Shown: positions 24,616 through 33,726 of the stretch, piece by piece
Layout of the letters: each line of letters opens with the position of its first letter
Numbering within the stretch: position 1 is the first letter of the stretch
Assembly: GCA_002839675.1 (NCBI GenBank)
Contig: PGYM01000001.1
Coordinates: 610,683-674,682, forward strand
Source of the DNA: Methanomicrobiales archaeon HGW-Methanomicrobiales-1
Lineage (GTDB): Archaea; Halobacteriota; Methanomicrobia; Methanomicrobiales; Methanospirillaceae
Length of the DNA stretch: 64,000 nucleotides
Reading direction: 5' to 3'
Program-made: the position numbers and the translations under genes
Notes under the pieces: generated by a model
Seen by the model: the letters and a program-made list of their open reading frames with translations, nothing else
What the model was told of the DNA's origin: nothing
The model's database searches: none

Positions 24616-24851
24616 CTCTTGTACTATGATTTGGCTTTTACCATAATACTAATGGAAAATTTTTATGCTTTTCTTTTTCAGTTCTGCTGACATTACCGGA
24701 AGGTTCGGATTCGGGACCTGTCTCTTTTTAGAGGCCTGATATGAGAATACCTGCATTTGAGCCGTTTTTTATATGGCCCCTCTTCCGGGAGATTTTCCCT
24801 TCATGCTCCATAGTCCGCTTGGTCCGGGGAATCATCCCTCACCTACATTTT

Positions 24852-24869
24852 GTACCCACGCGACCCCCC
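24852..24869 (+). repeat. C-rich repeat, family 1 copy A
   Basis: GTACCCACGCGACCCCCC. Its first 17 bases are the exact reverse complement of copy B, 80 bases downstream. Confidence 0.7.
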
Positions 24870-24949
24870 ACATCAACACCCGTTGGGTAAAAGCCGGCTT
24901 ATCGGCGTTAATCATGGCAAAATTCGCTCAAAATCCGGGAGAGGCGGGA

Positions 24950-24966
24950 GGGGGTCGCGTGGGTAC
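24950..24966 (-). repeat. C-rich repeat, family 1 copy B (inverted)
   Basis: GGGGGTCGCGTGGGTAC on the plus strand, a perfect 17-base inverted match of copy A. About 20 bases before it stands AAAATCCGG, which also precedes the inverted copy of family 2. Confidence 0.7.
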
Positions 24967-25093
24967 AGCTGATAATTGCTGCCATGTTCTCCAGCAACTC
25001 CGGGTGATCTATTGGCATGATTTCTCTGTCGCTAATCGGTCGGAATCGGGTGGTTGATTCCCGAATCCGGTTCTGTGTTTGGATCTGCGAGTT

Positions 25094-25113
25094 GTACCCA
25101 TGCGACCCCCCCC
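25094..25113 (+). repeat. C-rich repeat, family 1 copy C
   Basis: GTACCCATGCGACCCCCCCC, one mismatch to copy A in the same orientation; 188 bases before the acyl-CoA synthetase start. Confidence 0.65.
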
Positions 25114-31580: not shown

Positions 31581-31710
31581 GTAGCCAGCGAGATCCTTTT
31601 TTCCGATCATCTCCTCACGCCAATATCCCCGGGACCATGATATTTTACCGGAACTCTCTCCGGGAAATTACCTTTGAAATGCGGACCGTATGGTTATGCT
31701 ATTTTCAAAG

Positions 31711-31730
31711 TGCCCCCACAGACCCCCCTC
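31711..31730 (+). repeat. C-rich repeat, family 2 copy A
   Basis: TGCCCCCACAGACCCCCCTC; reverse complement of copy B with one mismatch. The match continues weakly into TCA-CCAT. Confidence 0.7.
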
Positions 31731-31827
31731 ACCCATTTTGATATAAAAGAGCCTTCAATGCGGATGATGTTCCCTCGTTAAAACCACTAATATTACACAA
31801 AAATCCGGACCGTGGAGCAGATGGATT

Positions 31828-31847
31828 GAGGGGGGTCAGTGGGGGCA
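31828..31847 (-). repeat. C-rich repeat, family 2 copy B (inverted)
   Basis: GAGGGGGGTCAGTGGGGGCA on the plus strand, inverted relative to copies A and C. AAAATCCGG stands about 20 bases before it, as before the inverted copy of family 1. Confidence 0.7.
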
Positions 31848-31937
31848 TTTGCGATTATTACGAGACGGGACATTCAGGTTCTCTTAAAAATTTACGGAGA
31901 CCGTGTTCAGATTTTCCCAGTCAATATCAAACAATAA

Positions 31938-31957
31938 TGCCCCCACTGACCCCTTTC
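31938..31957 (+). repeat. C-rich repeat, family 2 copy C
   Basis: TGCCCCCACTGACCCCTTTC, two mismatches to the reverse complement of copy B; 142 bases before the lipoprotein start. Confidence 0.65.
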
Positions 31958-33021: not shown

Positions 33022-33726
33022 ATGATCCTGAAAATATTCACCCTTACTCTTGAACCAGCGAAACCGGTGCAATTCTCCCTCACTGAATTCCGGTCATATC
33101 TCACCGGGAAACTCGGTGAATATACTGCGCTTCACAAAGAGAGTACAGCCGGGTTCATTCATCGTTACCCGGTGGTCCAGTGCAAACAGATCCGGAATTC
33201 GTTGATTGTCATGGGTATCAGCCAGGGGGCAGATTTCCTTTTTCTGCTCGGAGAGGGACGGAAAGAAATTTCGAACGGCAACACTGCCTGCACGATCCTT
33301 GAGCGTGATGCCTCTGTCAGGACCGAAGAGTTTGGGATCTCCGGCACAACCTTCACGTATGAGTTCCTGACGCCGTGGCTTGCCCTGAACCAGCAGAATG
33401 CAAAGAAGTTTTATGATCTCAAAGGCAAGCCGGACCGGGATGCATTCATGCACAGGATCCTTGTCGGAAATCTCGAAACGCTGGCAAAATCCCTTGATTA
33501 TAAAGCGCCTGTTCCTATCAGTTGCGAGGCAAAGCTAAAGTTCCGGATAGACCGGATCGATCGGGAAAATGTCATCGTCTTTTTAGGGAAGTTCCGGACG
33601 AATCTGCGGATCCCGGATTATTTCGGCATCGGCCAGTCCGTGTCGCAGGGATTTGGCACAATACGGTGTATCCCGGACATTCCTGTACCGGAAGACGAGG
33701 GGGACGCACCCCCGGATTCAGGGTAA
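33022..33726 (+). CDS. Cas6b-like CRISPR RNA endoribonuclease, stand-alone
   Basis: A 234-residue RAMP protein. The C-terminal glycine-rich loop (LRIPDYFGIGQSVSQGFGTI, residues about 194-213) is the Cas6 hallmark and specifically resembles Cas6b of type I-B systems. The N-terminus has the family HRYPVVQCK block at 47-55. His38 aligns by position with the first catalytic histidine reported for Methanococcus maripaludis Cas6b; the second (two residues later) is Glu40 here, so activity is uncertain. The gene has no cas neighbour and no repeat array in the window. It could act on arrays elsewhere or have a different RNA target. Confidence 0.72.
   Translation: MILKIFTLTLEPAKPVQFSLTEFRSYLTGKLGEYTALHKESTAGFIHRYPVVQCKQIRNSLIVMGISQGADFLFLLGEGRKEISNGNTACTILERDASVRTEEFGISGTTFTYEFLTPWLALNQQNAKKFYDLKGKPDRDAFMHRILVGNLETLAKSLDYKAPVPISCEAKLKFRIDRIDRENVIVFLGKFRTNLRIPDYFGIGQSVSQGFGTIRCIPDIPVPEDEGDAPPDSG

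Follow-up and report, generated by a model that had tools for sequence, protein, structure and literature searches.

Three-box intergenic elements of Methanoregula genomes have box types that track paralogs of a small protein

The chromosomal sites of MatP (matS) and ParB (parS) are single short palindromes of one type. Dispersed repeats whose types are tied to gene paralogs are known from the REPIN-RAYT systems (PMC3116915, PMC2817692, PMC8049555). REPINs are paired inverted repeats with a spacing of 71 to 110 bp that are tied to one gene (PMC3116915), and inverted repeats lie to either side of the RAYT gene (PMC2817692). Here we describe intergenic elements made of three boxes, for which a literature search found no paper. 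The window, meaning the whole stretch of 64,000 nucleotides that was analysed (G000:C1:610683-674682), comes from a 2.47-Mb genome in five contigs and holds two such trios. The one under study spans 31710-31954 and, with its boxes read in an 18-nt register, is made up as follows, with the boxes of the second trio listed below it.

31710-31727, plus strand: box M1, GTGCCCCCACA followed by GACCCCC, a variant of type T
31728-31830, no strand: loop 1, 103 bp, about 20 bp over the usual 78-84 bp
31776-31783: centre motif of loop 1, CGTTAAAA
31801-31809: AAAATCCGG, inside loop 1
31831-31848, minus strand: box M2, inverted, ATGCCCCCACT followed by GACCCCC
31849-31936, no strand: loop 2, 88 bp, of the usual short class
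about 31887-31897: centre motif of loop 2, AAAATTTACGG
31937-31954, plus strand: box M3, ATGCCCCCACT followed by GACCCCT, one change in the constant part
24851-24868, plus strand: second trio (type G), box M1, TGTACCCACGC followed by GACCCCC
24950-24967, minus strand: second trio (type G), box M2
25093-25110, plus strand: second trio (type G), box M3, TGTACCCATGC followed by GACCCCC

An earlier note on this DNA had reported three copies in direct-inverted-direct order at the first locus, and all three are where it placed them; the AAAATCCGG that it saw ahead of the inverted copy is present at both window loci. Its statement that the copies end in GACCCCCC is true of two, the third ending in GACCCCTT, and the spacing match that it drew between the trios is a similarity and not an identity, with start-to-start distances of 121 and 106 bp at 31710-31954 versus 99 and 143 bp at 24851-25110. 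A Cas6b gene lies near the first trio (window 33022-33726); the genes scanned around it encode a GNAT acetyltransferase, an isochorismatase, and an adenine deaminase, and none is a cas gene.

The proposal that both loci belong to one intergenic element family, with the architecture kept and the motif differing, was borne out by many further loci with the same layout in this genome and its relatives. Counts for this genome come from genome-wide pattern searches. The pattern GACCCCC-N(66-96)-GGGGGTC matched 10 times in 2.47 Mb, far more than chance would give, compared to 0 for a reversed-pattern control, and type-specific box searches gave 13 loci (12 trios and one pair, at C4:116703), inside which nearly all box copies fall. 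Across 20 Methanoregula genomes, more than 120 trios (121) repeat the geometry, in the order M1(+), loop 1, M2(-), loop 2, M3(+), with fixed spacing. Each box is an asymmetric 18-nt sequence consisting of a variable 11-mer and then the constant GACCCCC. In dispersed trios, the M1 and M2 starts are 96-104 bp apart (mode, 99), while the M2 and M3 starts are mostly 104-107 bp apart (mode, 107); smaller numbers of trios have 142-143 or about 150-165 bp. The centre midway between boxes is A/T-rich; among 37 diverged short-class trios, the loop centres read CGTAAAA in loop 1 and AAAATTACGAC in loop 2. The boxes fall into discrete types, including rarer ones besides the eight given here by their variable parts.

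Type G (this genome): TGTACCCAYGC
Type T (this genome): TGTCCCTCACT and TGCCCCCACT
Type C: TGCCCCTGCCC
Type P: GTACACCGYCC
Type S: TTATCCCCACT
Type F: TTTTCACCACA
Type K: AAAAGTGGTCC
Type A: AAAATAAATTC

Loops, like boxes, follow type. Dispersed trios of one type number about 5-15 per genome, and inner box pairs range from 0 to 19 per genome. These trios lie between unrelated, mixed housekeeping genes in every orientation, and we found no association with a gene class and no fixed relation to promoters. Two other arrangements were also noted: a variant with back-to-back boxes, GGGGGTC-N16-GACCCCC (L094, L353), and a different repeat ending in AAGGGGGACCCCC that is paired at about 98 bp in one genome (L078 and L106, G011).

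A comparison of the neighbors of 143 loci singled out one gene. It lies shortly after trios whose M2-M3 spacing is long, its orientation never varies, and its paralogs adjoin trios of different type within one genome; we call the trios upstream of these genes master trios. The product is a small protein of 167 amino acids (ORF167), for which Pfam and NCBIfam gave no match and PHROG none of significance. Its AlphaFold2 model is confident (mean pLDDT, 85.5) and had no significant structural match in Foldseek. In a profile search over 150 genomes of the order, 124 had ORF167 relatives, at 1-11 copies each, and this genome had six. Here the type G protein is encoded at C1:423809-424306 and the type T protein at C5:30438-30935. 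A maximum-likelihood tree separates clade I (51 sequences; basic, pI 7.3-9.9) from clade II (30 sequences; acidic, pI 4.3-5.5) with 100/100 support, and the median pI is 9.4 for trio-linked proteins versus 4.7 for unlinked paralogs. A full trio in the fixed geometry, allowing at most two mismatches in 21 constant positions, is present upstream of 34 of the 40 clade I gene entries whose upstream sequence was long enough (L303 and L343 among them being one gene), and 22 of these trios are perfect. None was found upstream of 29 clade II genes or in 200 shuffled upstream sequences. M3 of the master trio ends about 50-170 bp ahead of the clade I start codon, and boxes are found only on the upstream side of clade I genes. 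The acidic clade II paralogs, likewise of 167 amino acids, occur throughout the order with neither a trio nor a known family, and four loci of this kind (L363-L366) are in this genome. A viral origin was considered and rejected, viral contigs holding neither an ORF167 relative nor a type G box.

Box type follows the ORF167 tree closely. Mapping the types on the tree takes 11 changes, near the minimum of 9, compared to a mean of 24.9 after shuffling, and none of 200 shuffles was as low. Each box type has a master trio upstream of a clade I gene, except for type P in G034 and type A in G019, dispersed types for which no master was identified. Within single genomes, dispersed and master types coincide: G and T in this genome, G, K, and P in G025, and G and F in G018; the masters of G034 (G and C) and of G019 (C and S) each match a dispersed type. 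As with an operator and its regulator, the type of the site evolves together with the protein paralog and is found in the same genomes, and this linkage suggests a hitherto unrecognised partnership between a DNA-binding protein and genomic sites.

The boxes are also better conserved than the DNA between them. In 10 ortholog pairs from the sister species G018 and G021, boxes are 95.7% identical versus 89.8% for loops (P = 5e-6); the seven pairs that are not borne by miniature inverted-repeat elements (MITEs; see below) show the same excess (P = 8e-6). Two pairs with disagreeing flanks, L149/L134 and L153/L138, were left out of this test. At the type G master locus in four species, boxes are 96.3% and loops 57% identical, the pairs compared being non-independent. 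Trios of different types moreover occupy equivalent positions across species, for example types T, F, K, and C downstream of hisD; types P and K and a GGTGT type downstream of serA; and types G, K, P, and C beside a SIS-domain gene. By hand count, orientation between loci of different type is the same in about 19 cases and flipped in 3 (sign test, 0.0009). Loops at equivalent positions go with type, which suggests the exchange of entire elements. The shared positions might stem from hot spots for insertion. Non-MITE trios and masters are confined to 29% of the chromosome in G018 and to 32% in G021 (P = 4e-5 and 1e-4), which counts as one observation because these are sister species; in G034 they show no clustering (P = 0.31).

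How these elements arose and what they do can be read in several ways. The direct-inverted-direct order permits two mutually exclusive stems, as in an RNA switch that forms either an M1:M2 or an M2:M3 hairpin, and the earlier note had attributed the matching of copies to mutual pairing kept by compensatory change. That part of its interpretation, which was partly supported overall, did not hold up: with type held fixed, copies do not co-vary locus by locus, and same-locus copies are no closer than copies from different loci. Over 24 type G loci, M1-M2 differences average 0.75 within a locus versus 0.747 when M2 is taken from another locus (P = 0.67), and the same within-type shuffle of 16 type C loci gave P = 0.74. 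Differences of the wobble type between M1 and M2 are balanced between strands (27 versus 34), without the asymmetry that G-U pairing would leave. Together, the shuffle and the wobble counts reject hairpin pairing as the reason why copies match. Within-locus likeness comes from type, so there is no evidence of pairing at the level of the locus, and type tracks the protein paralog. In subfamily K of G025 (AAAAGTGGTCC), 6-8 of the 11 variable positions differ between M1 and M2 of a locus, and up to 8 of 11 among its three copies; such copies cannot pair across the greater part of the 11-mer, even though GACCCCC and the spacing remain intact. The covarying base pairs between box copies that mark an attenuator or riboswitch were not seen, trio neighbors lie in all orientations, and an Rfam search with the element gave no match above any family's gathering score. 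An RNA switch is thus hardly credible and is refuted unless pairing is limited to the GACCCCC part. Only slightly less improbable is that the trios are ordinary IS5-family MITEs whose old copies have lost their ends. This does describe a subset. Recent copies in G018, G021, and G025 are longer than the trio and finish in terminal inverted repeats (TGCTCTGTAGAAA...TTTCTACAGAGCA); some are bordered by 8-bp direct repeats rich in A/T. Two copies, L156 and L158, have no counterpart at the equivalent G021 sites, and the same terminal repeats bound a 1-kb autonomous element encoding an IS5-family transposase. At 76 other trios, however, IS5-type ends do not rise above control (right, P = 0.95; left, P = 0.013, a slight excess). 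The MITE is thus the carrier of some trios and no explanation of the family. Boxes that are kept while the remainder decays, and a box type that tracks a different protein, also speak against it; as a reading of the whole family it is largely refuted, and we retain it for the subset.

A third reading makes the trios a selfish system resembling REPIN-RAYT, in which clade I ORF167 would move them, the master carrying the gene and the dispersed trios being non-autonomous copies. One master per type with dispersed same-type copies, loops that also go by type, copy numbers varying from 0 to 19 pairs per genome, and the likeness to REPINs, which are also inverted pairs at 71-110 bp tied to one gene, all favor it. 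Nevertheless, ORF167 has no match to a transposase family, its invariant columns contain no H-hydrophobic-H motif, and the boxes are non-palindromic. The turnover observed is in MITE-borne copies, non-MITE trios showed no insertion polymorphism, and most of the non-MITE trios compared between G018 and G021 are common to both, L149/L134 being a doubtful case. Equivalent positions and orientation despite different types argue for sites that are kept. We therefore consider a selfish origin unlikely, although far less so than either of the readings above. Because the compared non-MITE trios are mostly shared and equivalent positions keep their orientation, we prefer a regulatory or chromosome-architectural role over mobility: the trios are probably the type-specific cognate DNA sites of the small basic clade I proteins, and a role of one of these two kinds is likely.

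If the trios are such sites, each clade I paralog would recognise one box type through an 11-bp type-specific half and a shared GACCCCC half. As ORF167 matches no sequence family or known structure, the putative binding rests on charge and linkage. The master trio, upstream of the paralog's own gene, is in a position suited to autoregulation, which the clade I proteins may exert. At dispersed trios, bound protein might form nucleoprotein complexes of fixed geometry, in which the three boxes are spaced by about 100 bp with an A/T-rich centre halfway between them, and could in this way serve the host. More tentatively, and with somewhat less confidence than we place in the trios being binding sites, the whole may constitute an undescribed archaeal system in which basic paralogs, derived from an acidic order-wide ancestor, differ in DNA specificity, each with its own master and dispersed three-box sites; a change of protein type would go along with joint replacement of the sites at fixed positions, and the system may organise part of the chromosome. 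For an archaeal order, an undescribed protein family would then be tied to its probable DNA targets, natural variation would offer several protein/site pairs in which specificity changes in concert, and methanogens would have a candidate site-specific regulator of chromosome or genes.

IS5-type ends turned up elsewhere as well. The IS5-family terminal repeat GCTCTGTAGAAA lies at contig ends of this genome (C2:86, C2:609367, C3:73, C4:79, C4:194134, and C5:73), so the assembly probably breaks at copies of the IS5-family element. G053, from another family of the order, has about 179 GCTCTGTAGAAA ends and 30 GACCCCC pairs. Its L114 and L115 are MITEs whose terminal repeats are GGCTCTGTAGAAA or close to it, with ATTTTTTC and ATTCTTTC as their 8-bp direct repeats; GACCCCC pairs of this sort are MITEs of a different make and were excluded from the trio count. 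L218, L227, and L236 are further MITEs with the same IS5-type ends and other contents, also with GACCCCC.

Among described systems, the trios and ORF167 come closest to REPIN-RAYT. In both, one genome harbours several kinds of repeat, every kind goes with a gene paralog of its own and has further copies scattered outside genes, and inverted repeats lie about 100 bp from each other. They differ in that a REPIN has two repeats and about 100 or more copies whereas a trio has three and about 5-19, and in that REPIN-RAYT is bacterial and the trio system archaeal. By Pfam search, ORF167 is unrelated to the IS200/IS605-like (Y1, HUH) tyrosine transposases; the asymmetric boxes do not form the short palindrome with a GTAG-like tag; and inverted repeats do not flank the gene on both sides. 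For these reasons we describe the trios as a separate system that works in part like REPIN-RAYT, an independent counterpart with which the distinction between selfish and host-serving repeat/protein pairs would become testable. IS5-family MITEs carry a subset of trios, but most trios are without terminal repeats and track another gene. Enterobacterial BIMEs are also regularly spaced intergenic repeats of alternating orientation; unlike trios, they are built of palindromic REPs and have no such pairing of type with paralog. The matS/MatP and parS/ParB systems likewise pair a small protein that binds DNA with several sites scattered over the chromosome, whereas the trios consist of three oriented boxes in several paralog-specific types.
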